64,000 nucleotides of DNA from Pelagibacterium sp. 26DY04 (GTDB lineage: Bacteria > Pseudomonadota > Alphaproteobacteria > Rhizobiales > Devosiaceae), in NCBI RefSeq assembly GCF_031202305.1, contig NZ_CP101731.1, forward strand, positions 992,001-1,056,000, in the 5' to 3' direction. Position numbers and translations under genes: made by a program. Below, piece after piece: positions 37,386 to 50,574 of the stretch. How positions within the stretch are numbered: position 1 is the stretch's first letter; the number at the start of each line of letters is the position of its first letter. The notes under the pieces are model-generated. The model worked only from the letters and a program-made list of their open reading frames with translations, was not told the origin of the DNA and searched no databases.

Positions 37386-38183
37386 ATGAAGATCGAGCTG
37401 GACCACCGTATTCAAAAAAGGAATTCTGCAGATCCTGGCTTCATTAGGCAGAAACACAGGAACACGCCCGTAATTTCTGTAGTTATTCCTGCGATGAACG
37501 AGGCAAGGAATTTGCCGCATGTCTTGCCGCTCATTCCCCGTTGGGTGGATGAGGTCGTTCTGGTGGATGGAAACTCGCAAGACGACACCGTTGCCGTCGC
37601 GCAGCGATTGATGCCGGACATCGTTATTGTAGGGCAGGACAGGCCCGGCAAGGGTGCCGCGCTGATGTCGGGCTTTCGCGCCGCCAGAGGCGAAATCATC
37701 GTTATGCTCGACGCGGATGGCTCCACCGATCCTCGCGAGATACCGGCCTTCGTCGGCGCGCTGCTTTCGGGCGCGGATTTCGTCAAGGGTTCGCGCTTTT
37801 TGCAAGGTGGTGGCACGCTGGACATGGAGTGGTACCGGCGGCTGGGCAATTGGGGGCTCGTAAAGCTCGTATCTCTGCGGTTCGGCGGGAATTTTTCCGA
37901 TCTTTGCTATGGCTACGCCGCCTTCTGGCGCGACGTTCTCGATCGCATGTCGCTCGATGATGCCGTGGGATTCGAAATCGAAACCAGCATGAACGTTCAG
38001 GCGCTGCTCTCCAATCTCAAGATCACCGAGGTCGCCAGCACCGAGCAGCGGCGCATCCACGGCAAAAGCAACCTGCGTACAATACCGGATGGATGGCGCG
38101 TGCTGACAACCATCATGCGGTTGAGCAGCCGGCCGCAAAGGGAGCTGCCAGGCCTGGACGTCGCAAAGTCTCAACAGAACTGA
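37386..38183 (+). CDS. Family 2 glycosyltransferase (DPM1-like)
   Basis: A 265-residue GT-A fold glycosyltransferase. PVISVVIPAMNEARNLPHVL is the nucleotide-binding start, and DADGS (in IIVMLDADGSTDPREI) is the metal-binding DxD equivalent. GFEIETSMNVQALLSNLKI resembles dolichol-phosphate mannosyltransferase-like proteins. It should be cytoplasmic and add a sugar from a nucleotide-sugar to a lipid or glycan acceptor. It is the first gene of the rightward polysaccharide operon, 15 bp before the double glycosyltransferase gene. The 5' part is AT-richer than the rest of the window. Confidence 0.87.
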   Translation: MKIELDHRIQKRNSADPGFIRQKHRNTPVISVVIPAMNEARNLPHVLPLIPRWVDEVVLVDGNSQDDTVAVAQRLMPDIVIVGQDRPGKGAALMSGFRAARGEIIVMLDADGSTDPREIPAFVGALLSGADFVKGSRFLQGGGTLDMEWYRRLGNWGLVKLVSLRFGGNFSDLCYGYAAFWRDVLDRMSLDDAVGFEIETSMNVQALLSNLKITEVASTEQRRIHGKSNLRTIPDGWRVLTTIMRLSSRPQRELPGLDVAKSQQN

Positions 38184-38198: not shown

Positions 38199-40382
38199 AT
38201 GTCTGAAATGGAGAAGATTTCAGTCGTCATCTGCACCCACTCAACTTCCAGGCTGCCACTTGTGCGCGATGCGTTGGCATCGGTTCAGATCCAAACGCGC
38301 CCAGCCCATGAAATCATCGTCGTTGTCGATCATAATCAGACAGTGGCGGACGCCCTGGCGTCCGATGACACCAATGTCCGGGTGATCCCGAATACCGGCC
38401 CCCAAGGCTTGTCGAGCGCGCGCAATTGCGGCGTCGCGGCGGCCACCGGCGATATCATTGCCTTTATCGACGATGACGCGCGGGCCGCCCCCGATTGGCT
38501 TGAAAAGCTTCTTGAGATCTATCGTACCCGCGATGTTTTGGCCGTCGGCGGCTACATCGAGCCGGTTTGGCCAGGCGGGCGCCCCAGTTGGTGGCCGGAG
38601 GAATTCGACTGGGTGGTGGGATGCAGCTATCGCGGCCAGCCCGAGACGGCGGCTTCGGTGCGAAATCTCATCGGATGCAACATGTCCTTCCGCCGGATGG
38701 CATTCGACGTTTGCGGCGGTTTTTCCGAAACCTTGGGACGCGTCGGTGCCGATGGTGGCGGATGCGAGGAAACCGAGCTCTGCATCCGGGCCCAGTCGGC
38801 ATTTCCGTTGAGCCGCATACTTTATGATCCCGCCGTCCGCGTCAGGCACCGGATCGATCCCGAGCGCGTGAGCTGGCGCTATTTTGTCAAGCGGTGCCGT
38901 GCGGAAGGACGCTCGAAAGCGCTTCTTGCTGCTCGGCTGGGCGGTGGCCAGGGCTTGAAGACCGAAACCCGTTACGTCAGGCGCGTCCTGCCCGCGGGCG
39001 TCCTCAAGGGATTGGCCGGCGGATGGGACGGATTTCTCCGGGCCGGCGCCATCATCGCGGGATTTGCCATCACCGCCACGGCCTATGCTCTCCCGCGCCG
39101 AACGCGGAGCAAAGCCGAAGCGGAAGCACCCCCTTTTGCCCCCATCAAGGTCGCTCAGTTCGACCTTGCCGAACCGATCGGCGAGCTTGCGTCTGACGAC
39201 CCCGGAAACGGGCGAATTTATGGAGGTGCCTTCTGCCTCGTGCGCGAACATGACCGGCCGCTCGGTATCGCGAAATTTGCTACCCATGGCCGCCCCGTCG
39301 AGGCAAGGGAGTTTTCCGTGCTCTTGCAGCAAGCGCGCGCCGGCGATGAGGCTGCGGTCCGGCCGGCGAAAGTCCTGTCCCAACCGCCGACCGCCCGCGT
39401 CGTCGTCGCCACCCGCGACAGGCCCGGGATGCTGGTGAGATGCCTCGATAGCCTGCTGGTCCAGGCCTATCGCCAGTTCGAGATTCATGTGGTCGATAGC
39501 GCCCCGGCGAGCAGCGCAACCCGCGAGTTGATCGCGCAGAGATATGCGGGGACCAATATTTGCTACAGGCACGAAGCCAATCCGGGGCTCGGCTTGGCGC
39601 ATAACCGGGGGATCGCCGGAGCCCGGGCCGAGATCTTGGCGTTCACAGATGACGATGTTCTCGTCGATCGCAACTGGCTCGCTGTCATCGGCAACGCCTT
39701 TGCCCGCGATGCACGTATCGGGTGTGTCACCGGCCTTATCCTGCCGGCCGAACTCGAAACCCGCGCCCAGTGGTGGACCGAGGCGCATGGGGGCTTCAAC
39801 AAGGGCTTCACGCCCAGGCTTTTCGATCTCGAGTTCAACCGTCCCAAGGGAAGCCTCTTTCCCTATGCCCCAGGTGCTTTCGGTTCGGGAGCCAACATGG
39901 CGTTTTCCCGGGCTGCGCTCGATGCCATTGGCGGTTTTGACCCGGCATTGGGTGCGGGGACGTTGGCGCGTGGAGGCGATGACCTGGCTGCCTTCACCGC
40001 GACGATCCTTGCAGGATTCCAACTCGCCTACGAACCGGGAGCCATCGTCTGGCACCATCATCGGCGCACCGAGGAGGGTATTGCAGGGCAGGCTTATGGC
40101 TATGGAGTAGGTTTGGGCGCGTATCTCACCAAGACCCTGTTCGATCACCCCTCTTCGGCATTGGCCTATGCTCTCGGGCTTCCCGCAGCCCTCGTCCACA
40201 TCCTCGGACCCGGATCGTCCAAGAATGCGCGGCTGCCTTCGGATTACCCATCGGCTCTCAAATGGGCGGAGCGCCGGGGAATGGTCGCGGGCTTTGCCGC
40301 CTATTTCCGCAGCCGCCGCGCCGTGGCCCGGCGCGCAGGCCGCGAACGTCAACCGCCCCTGATGTCGCAACGCAGTGCTTGA
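38199..40382 (+). CDS. Double family 2 glycosyltransferase (two GT-A domains)
   Basis: A 727-residue protein with two complete GT2 domains. The first spans about residues 7-260 (EKISVVICTHSTSRLP, AFIDDDARAAPDWL, ETELCIR). The second spans about 400-660 (TARVVVATRDRPGMLVRCLDS, LAFTDDDVLVDRNWL, GGDDLAAF, VWHHHRR). A linker holding YGGAFCLVREHDRPLG joins them, and a short hydrophobic stretch near 285-300 may touch the membrane. Two catalytic sites in one chain could add alternating sugars. It starts 15 bp after the previous gene and is followed after 9 bp by the deacetylase gene. Confidence 0.87.
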   Translation: MSEMEKISVVICTHSTSRLPLVRDALASVQIQTRPAHEIIVVVDHNQTVADALASDDTNVRVIPNTGPQGLSSARNCGVAAATGDIIAFIDDDARAAPDWLEKLLEIYRTRDVLAVGGYIEPVWPGGRPSWWPEEFDWVVGCSYRGQPETAASVRNLIGCNMSFRRMAFDVCGGFSETLGRVGADGGGCEETELCIRAQSAFPLSRILYDPAVRVRHRIDPERVSWRYFVKRCRAEGRSKALLAARLGGGQGLKTETRYVRRVLPAGVLKGLAGGWDGFLRAGAIIAGFAITATAYALPRRTRSKAEAEAPPFAPIKVAQFDLAEPIGELASDDPGNGRIYGGAFCLVREHDRPLGIAKFATHGRPVEAREFSVLLQQARAGDEAAVRPAKVLSQPPTARVVVATRDRPGMLVRCLDSLLVQAYRQFEIHVVDSAPASSATRELIAQRYAGTNICYRHEANPGLGLAHNRGIAGARAEILAFTDDDVLVDRNWLAVIGNAFARDARIGCVTGLILPAELETRAQWWTEAHGGFNKGFTPRLFDLEFNRPKGSLFPYAPGAFGSGANMAFSRAALDAIGGFDPALGAGTLARGGDDLAAFTATILAGFQLAYEPGAIVWHHHRRTEEGIAGQAYGYGVGLGAYLTKTLFDHPSSALAYALGLPAALVHILGPGSSKNARLPSDYPSALKWAERRGMVAGFAAYFRSRRAVARRAGRERQPPLMSQRSA

Positions 40383-40391
40383 GGAGGATCA

Positions 40392-41249
40392 GTGACAGTC
40401 CCGATCCTGATGTACCACAGCATTGGAAACGACTGTTCGGCGGGCTATCGGCGCTGGATGGTTACGCCTGATCGGCTGGAAAGCCAGCTCAGGGCCGTTC
40501 GCTCGCTCGGCTATCGATTTGTCACCATCAGGGAGCTGGCCCATATCAGGCGGAATGGAGGCCTTTACGGGCATCGTCTCGCTGCCGTCACGTTCGATGA
40601 CGGCCTTGCAGATTTCCTATCCGGTGCCGTGCCTGTTCTCGAGCGGCTGGGGGTGCCGGCAACCCTGTTCGTCACCACCGGCTATGTGGGTGAAACCGCC
40701 CGCTGGCTTGCCGGGCTCGGGGAAGGTGACCGCCCGATGCTGGCCAAGTCCGATATACAGGCCCTTGCCCGTTCAGGCATCGAATGCGGGGCGCACAGCC
40801 ATACTCATCCGCAATTGGACCTGCTCGATCCCGCGGCCGCTTCCCGCGAAGTGCTGACCAGTCGGGACCTGCTTGGCGATTGGCTGGGTTCGATGCCCAG
40901 GAGTTTCGCCTATCCCCACGGATATTACACGCAGCCGGTTCGCGAGATCGTCGCCCAGGCGGGCTTTTCTTCCGCCTGCCGGGTTGCCCATGCCCTGAGC
41001 CGGCGGGAGGAAGATCCCTATGCTCTTGCCAGGATCATCATGACCGAACGCATCGACCAGCCGGCACTTGAAAGAATGCTGCGCGGGCAGGAAATCGGTT
41101 ACGCGCCCCCAAGCGACAGCCTCCCCATCCGCGCCTGGCGCCTGGTGCGGCGGATACAAGGCCTTGCCAGACCGGCGGCATACCTTCCATTGCTGCTTTG
41201 CACCCATCCCCACGCGCACACTTTTGCGGATCTGATATCTGCTGTATAA
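40392..41249 (+). CDS. Polysaccharide deacetylase (NodB fold)
   Basis: A 285-residue NodB-homology enzyme that removes N- or O-acetyl groups from a glycan. The metal Asp pair is in VTFDDGLADF and the His pair is in CGAHSHTHPQLDLL. SFAYPHGYY and the opening VPILMYHSIG are typical. There is no signal peptide, so it may act in the cytoplasm on lipid-linked intermediates or cross by another route. The start is GTG 40392 behind a GAGGAGG site (40381-40387). Confidence 0.88.
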   Translation: MTVPILMYHSIGNDCSAGYRRWMVTPDRLESQLRAVRSLGYRFVTIRELAHIRRNGGLYGHRLAAVTFDDGLADFLSGAVPVLERLGVPATLFVTTGYVGETARWLAGLGEGDRPMLAKSDIQALARSGIECGAHSHTHPQLDLLDPAAASREVLTSRDLLGDWLGSMPRSFAYPHGYYTQPVREIVAQAGFSSACRVAHALSRREEDPYALARIIMTERIDQPALERMLRGQEIGYAPPSDSLPIRAWRLVRRIQGLARPAAYLPLLLCTHPHAHTFADLISAV

Positions 41250-41603: not shown

Positions 41604-43481
41604 TCAGCGCGGCGGCGCGGCCCTCTCCGTGGAAGGCTGAAACACGATGGCGTCGGGACCGACGAAAGCGATCTCGACATCGGGCGAGGCGAGAAGCGCC
41701 TCCACCACATCGGAGAGATCGGAGTCGGGCAGCGGGTTCATCGCCTCGAAATAGGCGTTCTGGCTGCGCGTGAAAATGGCATAGGCCGGGCCGTCGTGAT
41801 CGTGCAGCCAGTCTGCCAGAAGTCCCGCCGGGTCCGAGCTGAGCGCGGCCGCAATGGCTGGCAGTTCCTCGGGAAGCGGCACGTAGATCATGTTCTCGTA
41901 GTTCTGTAGCTGCCTCGGATAGGTACTCGCGCCTTCGATCAAGAGGGTATTGGGCTCGGAGGTCTCATAGAGCCATCGGGCGGCGGCAACCTCGCTGTCG
42001 GAAAACCGGTACTGAGCGTCCTTGCCATTGTTGGCGAGAATGAAGGCTGCAGATCCACCCATCAGCAGCAGTGCCAAGGCGAGAGCCTTGAATGGCTGCA
42101 ACCGGCTTTTGGGCGCGGGAAAAACGAGTGCAGCGGCGAAAAAACTCAGGAACGGCAGGGCGAAGAAATAGACGCGAAACAGAACCTCCCCGCCATATGA
42201 CGTAGCGATGGCCAGCGGCAATGGCGCCAGGGCCAGCATCGCGGCAATCCCGTCCCGATACCCGCGATGAAAGCGGATGACGCAACCGGCGATCGCCGCA
42301 AGGCCGATGGTGGCGACGATGGCCCGGCCGGCCAGTGATACCAGGCGTTGGCTTTCACTGACACTGTTCCAATCGATCACGGCGCCGAACGTGTCCTCGC
42401 CGACCGCTCCGAACTCGGCGACAAGCATGGAGAGCATTTGCCCCATGAACGGATCGGCCACGAAAACCAGCCACAGGACCTCGGCGGCAATTGCAAACAG
42501 GGCAAACCCGATAGCAAGGCGACCGAGCAGGAAAAGCCCTGACAACATCGCGATCAAAAGGATTGGCGTGAGCTGATGGCTGGCGACGATGGCAACGATC
42601 AGCGAGAGCACCACCCCGATGGCCGTCGCTTTCATGGCCGGGGAAAGCGCTCGGGGCAGCACCGGCATGCGGCGCGTTGCCCAAAGCCTCAGCCTCCACA
42701 TATCAAAATGCAAGGCCGGCGCGTGAGGCGAGGGCCTGGGAGGAATGGCGGCAAGGGGGCCCAGACACAGCGCCAGGGCGATGAGCAGCAGCAGAAACGC
42801 CGTGCCTTGAGGGGAAAAATAATCCTGCCCGACCCAATTGCCGACCACGAAAATGGCCGTTGCCGTCCAGACAAGGCGGAGATCGGTTGACAGGCACCGA
42901 AAGATGTAAGGCAGGACCAAAGCGTAGAGCAGATTGAGGCCCAGCGGGAAGAAGCGGCCGATCTGCGACATGGCGATCGGATCGAGCCCGAACAGCTTTC
43001 CGAGCCCGGCAAAAACGAGAAAAAATCCCGGCCAATTGTGATAGGCGGCAAGATAGCGCGACCACGGATCGATCGAGCCGGTGCGCTGGATGTATTCGAT
43101 GACGCCCAGATGCTTCCATGCCCAAGGGTAGCGCAAATTGTCGTAAACCAGCGCCGGCGTTCCGTGCAGCAGAACGACAAGCATCAGGATCAGGGCCAGC
43201 GGCGTGAGGCGCCGGCCGGGTTTTTCCCCCAGCGCGATCACGAACCCGCCCGCGATCAATCCCACCGATAGGGCCATGGTCCAGGACAGGGCGGTTATCA
43301 GCCCAAGCCCGCCGATCTCGTCCACCGAAATCTCCGGCAGGCCGATTGCCCACAGAACCATCGCCGCCAGCAGGCATGCCCAAGGCAGCAAGGTTCCGGC
43401 CAATGCGGCCCCGTCGTTGAACCCGAAGGTTTGCCGTGCGCCTGAAAATGGCAGGGAGGGGCCGTGAGAAGCGCTGCTCAT
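41604..43481 (-). CDS. Polytopic membrane protein of the polysaccharide cluster
   Basis: A 625-residue protein with about a dozen membrane segments (LLPWACLLAAMVLWAIG, ALSVGLIAGGFVIALG, LALILMLVVLLHGTP, VYFFALPFLSFFAAALVFP and others). A soluble C-terminal part follows from about residue 480. A periplasmic loop with RTGSIDPWSRYLAAYHNWPGF resembles GT39/O-antigen ligase-like proteins. Its place beside a flippase suggests a polymerase, ligase or glycosyltransferase working outside the membrane. The family cannot be fixed by eye. The start at 43481 overlaps the flippase stop by ATGA. Confidence 0.72.
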   Translation of the reverse strand: MSSASHGPSLPFSGARQTFGFNDGAALAGTLLPWACLLAAMVLWAIGLPEISVDEIGGLGLITALSWTMALSVGLIAGGFVIALGEKPGRRLTPLALILMLVVLLHGTPALVYDNLRYPWAWKHLGVIEYIQRTGSIDPWSRYLAAYHNWPGFFLVFAGLGKLFGLDPIAMSQIGRFFPLGLNLLYALVLPYIFRCLSTDLRLVWTATAIFVVGNWVGQDYFSPQGTAFLLLLIALALCLGPLAAIPPRPSPHAPALHFDMWRLRLWATRRMPVLPRALSPAMKATAIGVVLSLIVAIVASHQLTPILLIAMLSGLFLLGRLAIGFALFAIAAEVLWLVFVADPFMGQMLSMLVAEFGAVGEDTFGAVIDWNSVSESQRLVSLAGRAIVATIGLAAIAGCVIRFHRGYRDGIAAMLALAPLPLAIATSYGGEVLFRVYFFALPFLSFFAAALVFPAPKSRLQPFKALALALLLMGGSAAFILANNGKDAQYRFSDSEVAAARWLYETSEPNTLLIEGASTYPRQLQNYENMIYVPLPEELPAIAAALSSDPAGLLADWLHDHDGPAYAIFTRSQNAYFEAMNPLPDSDLSDVVEALLASPDVEIAFVGPDAIVFQPSTERAAPPR

Positions 43482-45715
43482 CGTGCCTCCAGGTATCGCT
43501 TGACCTGCTGGAGGGGCCAATCGAGGTTGACCGCGCGCCAGGCATGGTTGGTTGCGTAGGCAGCGTCACAATCAAGGTTCCGCGCCAAATGATGGATCCA
43601 GGCCAGCAGCACCATCTCGCCCCTGAGGTCGTCCTGCTGCAGCCAGTGCCCGCCCGTCCCTCCGGCGGCAAGCCAGTCACGCTCACCGGCCGACCACGCG
43701 CCGCCGTTCAAAAGATCATGGACGACCGGCCCCAGCTCCTGATCGCGGACCATCATGCGCGTCGTGAGCGCCAGGTGGCAGATGTCGAGGCCCGCAGGGG
43801 CGTCCCGGCGCATATGCGACCAGCCCACAATCCTGCACACATGTGGCCGATCGGATGCGCCGGTTTCGAGCAGAAAGCTTTCGGGGACCAGATTGCAATG
43901 GGCGACACCCAGATGAAGCTGCCGGCTGGACCAGAATTCGAGCATATGGGCTTCGAGCGCTGCCAGCGCCATGTCGGCTCGAGTGCGATGCCGGCGCTCC
44001 AGACGCCGGATCGTTGCCAGCGGGCGGCGGATCCAGGAGTCCGTCCAGGCCACCGAAACGCTCTCCAGCGAGGCCGTCGCTGCATGAATCCGCCCGATAG
44101 CCCGCGCCGCCGTCGCCAGGCCGGGAGACGGATCGTCCTGTTCGAGCAGATCCGCCAGAGTCAACCGTTCCGTCCCGGCATGCCAACCGGATCCCGGCGC
44201 AGGCGGAAGCAGGTGCTTCAGCCGCGAGAGGCGAGGATCGGAATGAAGCAGGCCGAGATTTTCCTTTTCACCATCGAGCGCCGCGCTTGCCCTACCCTCG
44301 ATAGCGGTCACCCTGTTCGGCGTGCCGATCATGCCGCGAACGATCCGACCCAACCCGCCCGAGAGGACGACCGCCACGTTGAGCGCCCGGTTCAACCCGA
44401 ATTTCGAGATGATGCCGACAAGGATAACGAGAACCGATGCCGTCTGGGCCAGAAGCCAGGCCATTGCCATGCCGGCTCCGCCCATTTCCGGCACCAGGAA
44501 AAGCCCGAGCGAAAGGGCAAGCACAAGGTTCAGCCACTGCACGCCCAGCATCGCGGGCAGCCAATCCTTGGCGCGCGCCACGGCAAGGAAGATCGTCTCC
44601 AACGTCCAGGGAATGCACGAGAGCGCCAGAAGCTGAAGGATGACGGTCCCTTGGCCCTGGTATCCGGGCCCGAAAAGCGACATCAGGCCCGGCGCCAGTA
44701 GAGCGATGGCGACCGAAACGACCGTTATCGGGAGCACCGCCTGGGCGATGGCTTGTCCGGCCAGCGATGCGATCCGTTCGCCTGCGACCACGCTCTCGGC
44801 CAGCAGCGATATGCCCATCGAGTGCCCCATCATGTAGATCGAATATGCGATCAACCAGCCGATATAATACTGTGCGGTGGTTTCCGGTCCGGCGTGGTCG
44901 AGGACGATCAGCGGCGCCGCGGCGATGGCGATGGTGGGGGCAAGGCCGGCGAGATAGTCGACGCTATAGAAGCGCGCCATCGCCCCGAGCGTGGGCAGCG
45001 GCCTTCCCTTGGCCGCTCGTTTGGGCAGCAGCTTTGCAAAGACCAGATAGCTCCCCACGACGACCGCCGGGATGACGGGAATGATCCAGGCGGTAAGAAG
45101 GCCCAGGCCATTTGCGGCAAACAGCGATGCGCCGGCCAGCGCGCCGATCTTGAGAGCAGACGAACTGATGGAAAAGACCGGAACCCAATGCGCGGCCCGC
45201 AACGCGCTCAAGGTGCTTTCGAGCAGTGAATAAACAGCCCATGCGGCAACGATCACGGCAAAGAACACCGAGAGCGCCCAGGACGCTGAAAGAAGTGCGA
45301 GCTCCTCGATGAACCAGCCGGCAGTCCGGGCAAATATCAAGCCCGCCAGAGCCCCCGGAATGGCACCGATGGCCAGGGCTCCGAGCACCAGGCGCTCGGA
45401 ACCCGGTCCGGTGCCGGGTAGAAAGCGCTGCAGGACATTGTTGAGGCTCAGCCGCGTGATGACGGAGATAGTCATGGCGGTATTGATCAGCACGCTGCCG
45501 ATACCGACCGCTGCCTGGTCGAGCAGGCGTCCGGCAAGCAGCCAGAACAAAAGGCCAAGCGCCGAGGTCACCACGATGCTCGTCATCAGGGCATAGGCAT
45601 TGCGGGCCAGGGACGAAGCCATGACCGCGTCAAACATGTGGAAAAGGCGCTCGGATATGGCAGTCAGCAGCGCTCTCTCGCCGGTTTCGCGCTGAATGCC
45701 GGGCCGGGGCATCAT
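43478..45715 (-). CDS. Polysaccharide flippase fused to a degenerate APH-like kinase domain
   Basis: A 745-residue fusion. Residues about 30-490 form a MOP/Wzx-type flippase with about a dozen to fourteen helices (YALMTSIVVTSALGLLFWLL, GWLIAYSIYMMGHSMGISLL). Residues about 545-745 resemble the C-terminal lobe of aminoglycoside phosphotransferase-like kinases. The expected HGDxxxxN loop reads HCNLVPES (606-613), so Asp is Asn608 and Asn is Ser613. The expected IDW motif reads VGW, so the metal Asp is Gly631. All three catalytic residues appear lost, which points to a pseudokinase. The ATG overlaps the GH16 stop (ATGA, 45712-45715), and the 3' end is coupled to the membrane protein gene. Confidence 0.82.
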   Translation of the reverse strand: MMPRPGIQRETGERALLTAISERLFHMFDAVMASSLARNAYALMTSIVVTSALGLLFWLLAGRLLDQAAVGIGSVLINTAMTISVITRLSLNNVLQRFLPGTGPGSERLVLGALAIGAIPGALAGLIFARTAGWFIEELALLSASWALSVFFAVIVAAWAVYSLLESTLSALRAAHWVPVFSISSSALKIGALAGASLFAANGLGLLTAWIIPVIPAVVVGSYLVFAKLLPKRAAKGRPLPTLGAMARFYSVDYLAGLAPTIAIAAAPLIVLDHAGPETTAQYYIGWLIAYSIYMMGHSMGISLLAESVVAGERIASLAGQAIAQAVLPITVVSVAIALLAPGLMSLFGPGYQGQGTVILQLLALSCIPWTLETIFLAVARAKDWLPAMLGVQWLNLVLALSLGLFLVPEMGGAGMAMAWLLAQTASVLVILVGIISKFGLNRALNVAVVLSGGLGRIVRGMIGTPNRVTAIEGRASAALDGEKENLGLLHSDPRLSRLKHLLPPAPGSGWHAGTERLTLADLLEQDDPSPGLATAARAIGRIHAATASLESVSVAWTDSWIRRPLATIRRLERRHRTRADMALAALEAHMLEFWSSRQLHLGVAHCNLVPESFLLETGASDRPHVCRIVGWSHMRRDAPAGLDICHLALTTRMMVRDQELGPVVHDLLNGGAWSAGERDWLAAGGTGGHWLQQDDLRGEMVLLAWIHHLARNLDCDAAYATNHAWRAVNLDWPLQQVKRYLEAR

Positions 45716-46644
45716 TGCCCCCTTTGCCAAATTCGGACGTAGTCGATCAGGAACCGAGCGGGAAAGCGAGTGGTTTCGTCGGGCGCGCCGGGCCAGGTGC
45801 CCCCGACGGCCAGGTTGACGAGCAGATACATTGGTTCCCTTGGAATGACGGACGCGTCGGTGAACCGCCAGAGTTCGACCCCGTCGAGATACCAGACGAT
45901 CGCGTCCGCAGACCATTCAAGCCCATAGACGTGGTAGCCTTGCGACAGATCGCTCACCGTGCGGGATCGGTTGACGCTGCGTCTCTCCCCGCTGCCGTCC
46001 TGATAGTGAAGGTGCATTTCGACCACGTTGGGACGGTGCCCCAGCACCTCCATGATGTCGATTTCTGGCAGCGAGCGATGCGTGGAAGGCAAAAGCCATA
46101 TGGCCGGCCATAGGCCCTGTCCGGCCGGAATGTGCGCGCGCACCTCGACATAGCCGTAGGTGAATGAGAACCGATCCGGGCCGGGGCGCTCCTCGTAATA
46201 GCGGCCCGTCGTAATAATTCCCGAAGTATAATCAAATATACGATCATCGATCCCGCGCACCGATTGTTCGCGGGCCGTCAACTCCAGTGCGCCGTTGCGC
46301 CCTGCAATGTTGGCGGCTGTGTACCACTGGTGGTTCTGGTTACCCAGATTGGTGCAGCCGCCATCCTCCCACCAATAGCAATGGGTCCATTTTGAGCCGT
46401 CTAGCCGGCCCGTGCCGAACTCATCGGAGAACACCCGGACCCATCCGGTCCCGCCGCTGATCGGCCCGGCCAGGGGGCTTCCAGACGCCGATGGCGGACT
46501 TTGCGCCGGGACGTTGGCCGCCGTTACGGGCGCTTGCGCCGCAGGCGTCCCCGTTCGCATGACCGTTGCCAGCGGCGTGCACGAACTTGCGATAAACAAA
46601 AAGCTCAGCAGCAAAACGCCCGTAAAAAGGGGAAAGTTTTGCAT
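45712..46644 (-). CDS. GH16-family glycoside hydrolase, lipoprotein
   Basis: A 310-residue secreted enzyme. The N-terminus FPLFTGVLLLSFLFIASSC is a lipoprotein signal with the lipobox cysteine after IASS, so it is anchored to a membrane. The GH16 catalytic motif ExDxxE is LPEIDIMEVLGH (nucleophile and acid/base Glu). WPAIWLLPS and HVYGLEWSADAIVWYLDGV are further hallmarks. GH16 enzymes cleave beta-1,3 or beta-1,4 glucans and galactans, so it may trim the polysaccharide made here. The ATG at 46644 has a GAGGGG site (46655-46660). It heads the leftward operon. Confidence 0.9.
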   Translation of the reverse strand: MQNFPLFTGVLLLSFLFIASSCTPLATVMRTGTPAAQAPVTAANVPAQSPPSASGSPLAGPISGGTGWVRVFSDEFGTGRLDGSKWTHCYWWEDGGCTNLGNQNHQWYTAANIAGRNGALELTAREQSVRGIDDRIFDYTSGIITTGRYYEERPGPDRFSFTYGYVEVRAHIPAGQGLWPAIWLLPSTHRSLPEIDIMEVLGHRPNVVEMHLHYQDGSGERRSVNRSRTVSDLSQGYHVYGLEWSADAIVWYLDGVELWRFTDASVIPREPMYLLVNLAVGGTWPGAPDETTRFPARFLIDYVRIWQRGQ

Positions 46645-46855
46645 TTCAACTTCGCCCCTCAAGCAAGCATGATTACCGGACGTGTTTTATGTTTAATAAG
46701 GAGTAAACCATATTCAATCGGGGAAAGAAACAGACTCCGGCGCTCACTAAATCCAAAGATTGAGTGCGCCAGCGAGAATGCGAGTCTGCATCTGATGAGG
46801 AACGTTAGCCAAGGTCGAGGCATTGGGAGTGAACACCCATCTCCCGAGGCCTCAC

Positions 46856-47371
46856 ATGACTCTTACCCTCACCGTGAACGGACAGGACCGCGCGCTCGAT
46901 CTTGATCCGCGCACCAGCCTTCTAGACGCCCTTCGCGACCATCTCGACCTTACCGGCACCAAGAAGGGTTGCGACCACGGCCAATGCGGCGCCTGCACCA
47001 TCCTGGTCAATGGCCGCCGCATCAATTCCTGCCTCACGCTGGCGGTGATGCATGAGGGCGACGACATCACCACCATCGAGGGATTGGGCACGCCCGAGGC
47101 GATGTCGCCGCTCCAGGCCGCCTTTGTCACCCATGACGGCTATCAGTGCGGCTATTGCACGCCGGGCCAGATCTGCTCGGCCACCGCCATGCTCGGGGAG
47201 ATCGAAGCGGGCTGGCCCAGCCATGTCAGCGAGGACCTGCTGGCCGATCCCGAGCTGACCGAAGCGGAGATTTCCGAGCGCATGAGCGGCAATATCTGCC
47301 GCTGCTCGGCCTATCCCAACATCGTCGATGCCATTCGCCAAGTGGGAGGCAGCCGCGATGATGCCGTTTGA
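46856..47371 (+). CDS. paoA: Molybdenum oxidoreductase [2Fe-2S] subunit (PaoA-like)
   Basis: A 171-residue subunit with two 2Fe-2S clusters. The plant-type cluster uses [11 protein letters not shown] plus a later Cys in INSCLTLAV. The second uses QCGYCTPGQ and [11 protein letters not shown]. It passes electrons from the molybdenum centre to FAD. No Tat signal is visible at the N-terminus ([16 protein letters not shown]), so it should act in the cytoplasm unless an upstream start is used. It is followed by the FAD subunit gene with an 11 to 14-bp overlap. Confidence 0.92.
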
Positions 47372-48344
47372 TTACCAGCGCGCCGAAAGCATCGGCGCCG
47401 CCGCCGGCCTGGCCCGAGATGCCCGCAACGCCCGCTTCATCGCCGGCGGCACCAATCTTCTCGATTTGATGAAGCTGGAGATCGAAACGCCCCAAATGCT
47501 GATCGACATCTCCCGTCTGCCCCTCGACACCATCGAGGAGGCCGACGATGGACGGTTGCGCATCGGCGCGCTGGTCACCAATGCGGATCTGGCCGCCGAC
47601 CACCGCGTGCGCCGCGATTATCCCGTGCTCTCTCGCGCGCTCCTGGCCGGTGCCTCGGGCCAATTGCGCAACAAGGCGACGACGGCTGGCAATCTGCTGC
47701 AGCGCACCCGCTGCTATTATTTCTACAACCCCGCCATGCCCTGCAACAAGCGCGAGCCGGGTTCCGGTTGCGGCGCGCTGGAAGGACACAACCGCATCCA
47801 CGCCATCCTGGGCGCAAGCGAACACTGCATCGCCACCCACCCCTCCGACATGGCCGTCGCCATGATGGCGCTTGAAGCGGAGGTCGAAATCCTCGGCGGC
47901 GGCACGCAAAGAACGATCGCGCTCGAACAATTCTATCGTCTCCCCGGCAATACCCCGCATATCGAAACCGTGCTCGAGCCGGGCGACCTCATCACCGCCG
48001 TCGTGCTCCCGGCGCCCATTCCCGGCCGGCACAGCTACCGCAAGGTGCGCGACCGCGCCTCCTACGCCTTCGCGCTGACCTCGATTGCCGCCATCGTCGA
48101 TTTCGATGGCACGACGATCCGTGACATACGGCTGGCCTTTGGCGGTTTGGCGCCGATGCCCTGGCGCGACCGCGATATCGAAGACCTGCTGCGCGGCAAA
48201 GCGCCCTCCGATGCGCTATGGGACCAAGCCGCCGATACCCTGCTCGCCGACGCCCGAGGTTACGGCGAGAACGACTTCAAGCTCGCTCTGGCGCGACGGA
48301 CGCTCGCCGCCGTTCTCGACCAGGCCTGTAGCGGAGGGCGCTGA
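47361..48344 (+). CDS. paoB: Molybdenum oxidoreductase FAD subunit (PaoB-like)
   Basis: A 327-residue FAD-binding domain protein of the xanthine dehydrogenase family. FAD contacts lie in [13 protein letters not shown] and [14 protein letters not shown] cysteine-rich insert ([21 protein letters not shown]) is the mark of the 4Fe-4S-containing PaoB/YagS branch. The start overlaps the paoA stop; ATG 47358 or 47361 are equally possible. The stop is 1 bp before the start of the molybdenum subunit, so the three subunits are co-translated. Confidence 0.9.
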
Positions 48345-48345
48345 G

Positions 48346-50574
48346 ATGGAAATGACGCACAAAATGGATGCGCCGGTCGCCGATAGCCTTCTCGACAAGA
48401 CCGGCCGGAACATCATCTCAAGCCCGATCGACCGGATCGAAGGCCCGCTCAAGGTCACCGGCACGGCACGTTATACCGCCGAGTTCAAGTTCGACGGCAT
48501 GCTCCATGGCGTGCTGGTGAGCGCGTCGATCGGCAAGGGTACTGTGACCGCGATCGATACGGCCGCCGCCGAACAGCTCCCGGGCGTGGTCAAGGTGATC
48601 GTCGATTTCGAGACGTTTCTGCGCAACCCGGCCCAGGGTCTGGCCACCGAAGCGCCCGCCCAGGGCGTGCGAGAGATCAGCCATTTCGGCCAGCCCATCG
48701 CGTTGGTCGTGGCCGAAAGCTTCGAGGCGGCCCGCCACGGCGCACTGGCCATCGATGTCCAGTACGCGACAGTGCCGGGACGTTTCGATTTCGCCGCCCG
48801 GCGCGATACCGGCGAACTCAAGGAAGGGACCGACCAGAGCCAGGGCGATATCGAAGCCGCGATGGAGGCCGCCCCCGCCAGGATCGACGGCATCTGGACC
48901 ACGCCGTCCCAGAATGCGTCCGCCATGGAGCCGCACGCCAGCACCGCGTTCTGGGAGGGAGATAACCTCACCCTCTATGGTTCCTACCAGATGCTGGCCA
49001 GCGACCGCGAGCAGCTTGCCGATGCGCTGGGGCTCGATCCCGAAAAGGTGCGGATCATCGCCCATTACATCGGCGGCGGGTTCGGCTCCAAGCTCGGCAT
49101 CAGTGCCGAAAGCGTCGCCGCGGCGCTCGCTGCCCGGCAGCTCGGCCGCCCGGTGCGGGTGGTGATGACCCGCCAGCAGGTCTATGACGCCACGGTCCGC
49201 CGCTCCAACACCGAACAACGCGTACGCCTGGCCGCCGACCGGAATGGGAAGCTGACGGCTGTAGGCCACGAAACCTGGACAGCCAATCTCGATGGCGAGA
49301 ATTTCTCCGAGCCCGCCAGCGCTTCCACGCAATTCCTCTATGGCGGCGAGGCGAGACGGTTCGGCAATTACATCGTGCGCATGGACCAGGTGCTTTCCGC
49401 CTCCATGCGGGCGCCCGGTGAAGCCGCCGGAATGCTGGCCCTCGAATGCGCCATGGACGAATTGGCCGAAAAGCTTGGGCTCGACCCGGTCGACTTGCGC
49501 AAGCGCAATATCCCCGATCGCCACCCGGTCAACGACATTCCCTATTCCAGCCGCTCGCTTGCCGAATGCCTCGATATCGGCGCCGCCGAATTCGGCTGGT
49601 CGGCCCGCAATCCCCAGCCGGCGAGCCGGCGCGAGGGCGAATGGTGGATCGGCATGGGCATGGCCGCCGCCGCTCGCTCCAACATATTGCGCAAATCGAG
49701 CGCCCGCGTGACCCTGAGGCCCGAGGGCAGGGCGGTGGTGGAAACCGACATGACCGATATCGGAACGGGGTCCTACACCATCCTCGCCCAGATTGCCGCC
49801 GAACTTCTGGGCCTGGACGTCGACAAGGTCGACGTCCATCTGGGCGACACAGCCCTTCCGCCCGCCCCCGGTTCAGGCGGCAGCGTCGGCGCCGCAAGTT
49901 CGGGCTCTGCGGTCTATCTCGCCTGCGAAAAACTGCGCCAGACCATCGCCGGAAAGCTCGGCTGCACGCCCGAGAGCCTGGTGCTCTCGGACGGCATGGC
50001 GCGTTCGGGCAACGTCTCCCATCCCTTGGGCGAATTGGCCGCAACTCCGCTCGAGGCCATGGGGATCATCGAGCCGGGAGAAACCGGCAAGGCGTTCGTC
50101 CAGGCCGCGTTTGGTGCCCATTTCACCGAGGTCGCCGTCAATGGCTATACCGGCGAAACCCGTGTGCGGCGCATGGAGTCGACCTTCGCGGCTGGCCGCA
50201 TCCTCAACGAAAAAACCGCCACCTCCCAATGTATCGGCGGCATGGTGTTCGGCATCGGGGCGGCGCTCACCGAAGAGCTCATGTATGACAAGCGCTTCGG
50301 CCAGATCGCCAATCGCGATCTCGCCGAATACCATGTTCCGGTCAACGCCGACGTGCCCCAGCTCAAGGTCAGGTTTCTTGAAGAGCGCGACTATGCAGCC
50401 AATCCGCTGCTCGCCAAGGGCATCGGAGAATTGGGGATTTCGGGCGCCGGCGCGGCGATCTCCAACGCGATCTACAACGCCGTCCGCATCCGCGTCCGGG
50501 ACTATCCCATCACCCTCGATAAGCTGATCGACAAGCTCCCCGATCCGCAAGGCGAGGGCACGCGCCCGCGTTAA
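48346..50574 (+). CDS. paoC: Molybdenum oxidoreductase catalytic subunit (PaoC-like)
   Basis: A 742-residue molybdopterin-binding subunit. It starts with a RIEGPLKVTGTARYTAEF-type domain and continues through IAHYIGGGFGSKLG and ASMRAPGEAAGM, which carry the cofactor and substrate site. The catalytic Glu lies in AKGIGELGISGAG near the C-terminus. The family oxidises aldehydes, including aromatic aldehydes, to acids with water as the oxygen source. Vanillin-type aldehydes would suit the catabolic genes nearby, but that is a guess. The maturation factor PaoD/XdhC is not in the window. Confidence 0.92.
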   Translation: MEMTHKMDAPVADSLLDKTGRNIISSPIDRIEGPLKVTGTARYTAEFKFDGMLHGVLVSASIGKGTVTAIDTAAAEQLPGVVKVIVDFETFLRNPAQGLATEAPAQGVREISHFGQPIALVVAESFEAARHGALAIDVQYATVPGRFDFAARRDTGELKEGTDQSQGDIEAAMEAAPARIDGIWTTPSQNASAMEPHASTAFWEGDNLTLYGSYQMLASDREQLADALGLDPEKVRIIAHYIGGGFGSKLGISAESVAAALAARQLGRPVRVVMTRQQVYDATVRRSNTEQRVRLAADRNGKLTAVGHETWTANLDGENFSEPASASTQFLYGGEARRFGNYIVRMDQVLSASMRAPGEAAGMLALECAMDELAEKLGLDPVDLRKRNIPDRHPVNDIPYSSRSLAECLDIGAAEFGWSARNPQPASRREGEWWIGMGMAAAARSNILRKSSARVTLRPEGRAVVETDMTDIGTGSYTILAQIAAELLGLDVDKVDVHLGDTALPPAPGSGGSVGAASSGSAVYLACEKLRQTIAGKLGCTPESLVLSDGMARSGNVSHPLGELAATPLEAMGIIEPGETGKAFVQAAFGAHFTEVAVNGYTGETRVRRMESTFAAGRILNEKTATSQCIGGMVFGIGAALTEELMYDKRFGQIANRDLAEYHVPVNADVPQLKVRFLEERDYAANPLLAKGIGELGISGAGAAISNAIYNAVRIRVRDYPITLDKLIDKLPDPQGEGTRPR

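Follow-up and report, generated by a model that had tools for sequence, protein, structure and literature searches.

A Wzx-like flippase fused to an APH-fold kinase domain that has lost its active site in Pelagibacterium: a possible docking or gating module in glycan export

Results

In the stretch of 64,000 nucleotides analyzed here (Pelagibacterium sp. 26DY04, contig NZ_CP101731.1, positions 992,001 to 1,056,000; the window), one gene encodes a protein of 745 residues that is, almost certainly, a Wzx-like flippase joined to a cytosolic domain with the fold and the ancestry of an aminoglycoside phosphotransferase (APH)-type kinase. The residues needed for catalysis are absent from this domain, and they are present in most of its relatives. 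The best overall explanation, to which we give a probability of about 0.5, is that a kinase once active at the flippase was turned into a module for docking or gating that no longer catalyzes.

The APH fold and the lost active site

A flippase fused to an APH-type domain had been proposed from the sequence in the original prediction, and folding the domain and searching the model against known structures bore this out. The window protein matched no Pfam or NCBIfam model, PF01636 included, but PF01636 was above its cut-off in three of the five relatives scanned, among them P0004 of P. lentulum, and below it in P0003 and P0005, which share the dead active site. A profile of the family matched capreomycin phosphotransferase (E 2.6e-6). 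Folded alone, the domain matched glucosamine kinase, APH(2''), choline kinase, maltokinase and LicA, among others; all 50 matches listed were APH-like kinases, although the non-listing of other kinases excludes nothing. The template-modelling scores from Foldseek were modest (about 0.3-0.5, with no match under E 0.001), as is expected if the N-lobe is missing. The folding alignment included relatives with intact active sites and the model is therefore not independent of them, and because the kinase-domain profiles include the window sequence, the window's own profile match is circular. Its kinship with kinases rests on evidence that includes the PF01636 match of P0004 and the fold search. As to a second copy of this kinase that might supply the lost activity, profile A2 found only the two pieces of the gene itself in the window genome at E<=0.001; the genome has two further matches to the APH family, at distances of about 68 kb and 631 kb.

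The APH-like superfamily (PF01636 and its kin) has a common C-lobe fold, and the relatives of the window gene carry the motif HGDxxxxN...DW. The window copy differs from these kinases in three respects: its catalytic residues are gone, most of its N-lobe is missing, and it forms part of a membrane flippase. We compared six alignment columns over 53 rows, which represent 46 distinct kinase domains at 99%. All six columns read H-D-N-D-W-D in 41 of the 46. As had been predicted, Asn608, Ser613 and Gly631 stand at the positions of the catalytic Asp, the Asn and the metal-binding Asp; the catalytic loop reads HCNLVPES, against HGDxxxxN in intact relatives. The five non-intact domains are those of the window (P0001), P0002, P0003, P0005 and P. 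lentulum P0004. The window and P0002 read H-N-S-G-W-D, and P0003 and P0005 read H-R-S-G-W-D. The P. lentulum protein (817 residues) reads H-N-N-D-W-D, the catalytic Asp alone being changed, to Asn; genome G004, of the same genus as the window genome, encodes this protein too.

The N-lobe has also been reduced. The linker and N-lobe remnant spans 78 residues between fixed columns in the window protein and P0002, against 100-153 in 19 other sequences, and the AlphaFold2 (AF2) confidence score pLDDT is below 50 at residues 464-478 and 507-516. This region has no aligned ATP-binding lysine, and the model is without an N-lobe sheet. By eye, relatives outside the dead group, and P. lentulum, have a lysine in a hydrophobic-x-K context before the next helix; P0001-P0003 have none at that place, and each has one further on, in the helix-aligned part. 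A Devosia ih3 protein has a short N-lobe region too (100 residues) and intact catalytic residues, so that a short N-lobe by itself is no proof of inactivity. Some pseudokinases transfer nucleotide-derived groups, and the domain might still do so using non-standard residues. We regard this as very improbable here, given that the Lys, Asp, Asn and Asp are all absent at the aligned places and that the sheet is missing from the model.

In a tree of 21 proteins, the window protein, P0002 and P0003 grouped together with a support of 100, and P. lentulum joined them with the same support; several nodes among the remaining alphaproteobacteria were weak (32, 38 and 54). P0005, a partial protein, was left out of this tree and is closest to P0003 (142 of 219 C-lobe residues identical). 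Because the five non-intact domains are the nearest relatives of the window gene, catalysis was lost within its own lineage. Thus the window protein belongs to a derived dead branch, and the fusion did not start with a pseudokinase. In the simplest history the catalytic Asp was lost first and the remainder later.

Constraint on the dead domain

The window protein and P0002 differ at 8 of 422 flippase positions, 12 of 217 C-lobe positions and 11 of 73 linker positions. The ratio of C-lobe to flippase branch length, summed by hand, was 1.23 over the clade of the window, P0002, P0003 and P. lentulum; the remainder of the tree of 21 sequences gave 1.48. Among P0001, P0003 and P0005, mean pairwise identity was 0.81 over residues 635-672 and 0.37 over the one-time catalytic stretch, residues 601-634; the corresponding values were 0.40 and 0.40 in seven intact alphaproteobacterial domains, and 0.53 and 0.57 in seven actinobacterial ones. 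The GC content at the three codon positions (0.71, 0.52 and 0.77 in the C-lobe; 0.64, 0.48 and 0.78 in the flippase) retains a coding pattern. Since the C-lobe shows no relative acceleration over the clade and residues 635-672 are conserved, the domain does not look like one in plain decay. The loss of the active site together with the keeping of the C-lobe suggests a retained binding role, toward the polymerase, the family-2 glycosyltransferase (GT2) or the glycan.

Several observations weigh against a docking or gating module. Substrate, product and partner are known for no member of the family. Seven flippase-GT2-polymerase and eight flippase-polymerase proteins show no kinase, so the module can do without one. 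The branches after the loss, taken alone (window, P0002, their stem and P0003), have a ratio of 2.13, a value inside but toward the upper end of the spread among terminal branches with an intact kinase (0.87-2.48). The segment 635-672 was picked after inspection of a table of successive segments, so its permutation p of 5e-5 against the alphaproteobacterial set is optimistic, and it is largely kept in P. lentulum too. Furthermore, protein databases list open frames only, and that the frame is open in relatives is therefore weak evidence of function.

The domain could accordingly be a relic, a kinase that became unnecessary, decays and persists only through its fusion to a needed flippase. The disappearance of every catalytic position and of the greater part of the N-lobe, the ratio of 2.13, a linker and N-lobe remnant with just 16 of 71 residues identical to P0003, and the several related architectures without a kinase would all fit such a history. 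Yet 100 of 217 C-lobe residues are identical to P0003, the whole clade has no relative rate increase, a conserved segment lies beside the dead site and the C-lobe keeps its coding-type GC pattern; we judge a relic to be unlikely. Somewhat less unlikely, though still doubtful, is that acceptor binding rather than protein docking was kept, the domain binding the lipid-linked glycan at the cytosolic face and so filtering what is flipped by its specificity. Two points speak for a filter: in the C-lobe the conserved segment comes directly after the strand of the former metal site, and the domain has its structural relatives among kinases of sugars and other small molecules, such as glucosamine kinase, maltokinase and LicA. 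That no ligand is known speaks against it. A docking or gating role of the dead domain, taken by itself, we propose tentatively, as nearly an even chance.

The flippase part

From the AF2 model, the fold match and a charge count, the flippase has a MOP fold with 12 transmembrane helices, a number that reflects our own grouping of the model's helices, and both termini in the cytoplasm. Inside loops contain 20 Lys and Arg residues and outside loops 1, a distribution that places the kinase domain on the cytosolic side. The full-length fold search returned only MOP transporters among the matches listed, and the kinase domain was for this reason folded separately. An assignment to MurJ instead of Wzx was considered; the scores were 32.4 for WzxE, 30.7 for human MATE1 and 27.6 for the best MurJ chain. 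WzxE is the lipid III flippase (9g9p and related entries), and its matched chain corresponds to only the flippase part, at 12% sequence identity. Because human MATE1 scores near WzxE, the cargo cannot be read from the fold by itself; a lipid-linked oligosaccharide is the putative cargo, suggested by the gene neighborhood of GT2, a family-16 glycoside hydrolase (GH16), a deacetylase and a candidate polymerase.

A repeatedly fused or clustered module

Protein searches scored about 8,000 candidates sharing most words, and the counts given here are of what was found. A profile search of genome contigs with the single window sequence found no relative; with alignment A1 it found six loci, the named holders being P. 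lentulum, Cucumibacter marinus, two Devosia metagenome-assembled genomes (MAGs), a Roseibium MAG and Rhodococcus sp. CH91. The fusion thus occurs in other genomes, as had been thought worth checking, and is not private to the window gene. Flippase, kinase, GT2 and candidate polymerase form a repeatedly fused or clustered module, patchy but widespread, and all four homologous modules are present in the window locus.

Among 68 proteins (P0001-P0068), 20 were flippase-kinase-GT2-polymerase, 2 flippase-kinase-polymerase, 3 flippase-kinase-GT2 and 7 flippase-kinase. Kinase-free arrangements comprised, besides those counted above, 10 GT2-polymerase proteins, and single modules were found as flippase (9), polymerase (1) and GT2 (1). 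The numbers are conditional on the cut-off of E<=1e-10, on the GT2 profile, which was built from a single sequence, and on the manner in which the proteins were found. The four-module megaproteins (P0019-P0038) have 1,518-1,918 residues, and those named come from Rhodococcus, Nocardia, Mycolicibacterium and a Mycobacterium MAG. One actinobacterial locus (L015:5911-11160) holds flippase, APH kinase, GT2 and candidate polymerase in a single protein, and the megaprotein P0026 additionally carries an OmpA-type domain (PF00691). P0016, P0018 and P0066 have a GT2 Pfam label, a flippase from about residue 270-320 and then a polymerase, with no kinase match; from their sequences, they appear to represent another module order.

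In Devosiaceae, profile matches (E<=0.001) were found in 41 of 136 genomes, with a full-length fusion in seven (G000, the window genome; G004, G013, G016, G086, G115 and G138) and partial matches in the others (best 3.4e-22). The candidate polymerase (E<=1e-20) was found in exactly these seven of the 136. An order-wide sample gave matches at E<=1e-30 in 3 of 397 genomes (G000, G004 and G500). At the same threshold 49 of 298 Mycobacteriales genomes matched, mostly in the flippase part alone; the full match was in one Rhodococcus genome (G512). A separate kinase was matched in six Mycobacteriales genomes, namely G686 and five others whose loci were inspected. Kinase, flippase and polymerase are separate genes within one 14-kb stretch in G576, G529 and G676 (L063-L065), and by eye the kinase gene adjoins a GT2-like gene in G556 and G615. 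Partial fusions occur in Devosiaceae and Roseibium, and elsewhere the modules are neighboring genes or, in Rhodococcus, Nocardia and Mycolicibacterium, one protein of about 1,750 residues. Two Devosia loci (L011 and L012) encode flippase-kinase-polymerase as one protein of 1,371 residues. In G500 (L046 and L048) a flippase-kinase fusion adjoins the polymerase, and a second, stand-alone kinase of the family with an intact motif lies on another contig. The candidate polymerase of P. lentulum (L072, G004:C43:200012-201787) is on a different contig from the flippase-kinase gene.

Among solved structures, none up to E 10 matched a profile built for the candidate polymerase, and the window copy had no Pfam match. 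The label therefore rests on position, fusion and sequence character, and the protein may be a glycosyltransferase of another type.

The locus

The features of the locus are listed in Table 1. The 3' end of the GH16 gene overlaps the start of the flippase-pseudokinase gene by four bases (45712-45715), and the stop of the latter overlaps the start of the polymerase gene as ATGA (43478-43481); because of these overlaps the three genes look translationally coupled. The two GT2 genes and the deacetylase gene are convergent with these three. Elsewhere the window genome has four matches to the phosphoglycosyltransferase family PF02397, of which one is partial, and a single match to the polysaccharide-exporter family PF02563. 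Molybdenum hydroxylase-like genes (2Fe-2S, FAD and molybdopterin subunits; window 46823-50574) adjoin the polysaccharide locus.

Table 1. Features of the flippase-pseudokinase locus in window coordinates
Feature	Position	Strand	Basis
Wzx-like flippase and APH-fold pseudokinase fusion, 745 residues	43478..45715	minus	open reading frame, folding, fold search
Flippase module, residues 34-450, 12 transmembrane segments	44366..45616	minus	AF2 model, WzxE match
Linker and kinase N-lobe remnant, residues 451-528	44132..44365	minus	alignment, AF2 pLDDT
Kinase C-lobe, residues 529-745	43481..44131	minus	alignment, fold search
One-time catalytic loop, residues 606-613, HCNLVPES	43877..43900	minus	motif comparison
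Gly631 at the metal-binding Asp position	43823..43825	minus	motif comparison
Conserved segment, residues 635-672	43700..43813	minus	identity within the pseudokinase group
Candidate polymerase (POL), about 625 residues, membrane protein by sequence	41604..43481	minus	
Family-16 glycoside hydrolase (GH16)	45712..46662	minus	best NCBIfam model EglC, under cut-off
Double family-2 glycosyltransferase (GT2)	38199..40382	plus	homologue of the GT2 module of actinobacterial megaproteins
Family-2 glycosyltransferase	37386..38183	plus	
Polysaccharide deacetylase	40392..41249	plus	

Discussion

The repeated fusion and clustering of the four modules indicates that their activities share a single target and site of action; the simplest candidate is the lipid-linked repeat unit where it enters the flippase. 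Most likely, the APH-type kinase at the flippase phosphorylates a sugar or another acceptor at the cytosolic face; the ancestral enzyme would have phosphorylated a sugar within the lipid-linked repeat, or some other small acceptor, just before flipping. In the Pelagibacterium-like lineage phosphorylation would have been abandoned and the C-lobe retained as a non-catalytic docking or gating surface, made up perhaps of residues ~635-672 and the C-terminal helices. Such a surface could couple the flippase to GT2, to the polymerase or to both, or it could check the glycan before it is flipped.

Mycobacterial MurJ is a known flippase with a pseudokinase tail. According to two papers (PMC6180346, PMC12599244), MurJ (MviN) is a lipid-linked glycan flippase with an intracellular pseudokinase that is dispensable for growth and thought to be regulatory; this pseudokinase is of the Ser/Thr-kinase type (ActPs3), has family constraints in its N-lobe and, when phosphorylated by PknB, recruits FhaA. 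The parallel that had been drawn with MurJ is thus real, inasmuch as both are lipid-linked glycan flippases with an intracellular pseudokinase (predicted in our case), but the kinase group appears to be a different one. Unlike MurJ, as those papers describe it, the window protein has an APH-type domain, lacks most of the N-lobe, is built on a Wzx-like flippase and has relatives with intact kinases; the switch from phosphorylation to an FHA partner is a feature of MurJ, and a regulator recruited by the window domain, as the parallel would imply, is hypothetical. A second comparison comes from the part of PMC12004946 that treats EcpK and HfsB, BY pseudokinases of Wzx/Wzy pathways, in which a dead kinase was proposed to be a scaffold for polysaccharide export. 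They are stand-alone BY-type proteins with a co-polymerase partner, whereas the pseudokinase described here is APH-type and fused to the flippase; EcpK shows, by analogy, that there is precedent for such a pathway to have a pseudokinase as scaffold.

No description of a Wzx-APH fusion was recognized in searches of the open-licence PMC literature, in agreement with what had been supposed. The source label of P0006, 'O-antigen/teichoic acid export membrane protein/aminoglycoside phosphotransferase', already names both parts. PMC12419801 mentions VanZ-type proteins fused to or neighboring MviN/MATE flippases, with an APH-like kinase in a figure legend, and that neighborhood may be related to the flippase-kinase module.

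A broader proposal, which we consider possible but rather doubtful, is that one stretch of a Wzx/Wzy export line (add a sugar, phosphorylate, flip, polymerize) would be a single polypeptide in actinobacteria and a set of coupled genes in alphaproteobacteria, and that the Pelagibacterium-like kinase would have become a phosphorylation-independent gate of the flippase, convergent with the MurJ pseudokinase. The 41 intact relatives would then display the ancestral state.

The window protein is a second, apparently independent case of a flippase with a pseudokinase, on a different kinase group. With its intact homologues, the single-change copy of P. lentulum and the fully dead copies, it allows a direct comparison of stages at which catalysis was lost and the domain kept, and the four-module megaproteins predict which proteins act side by side in the export line.

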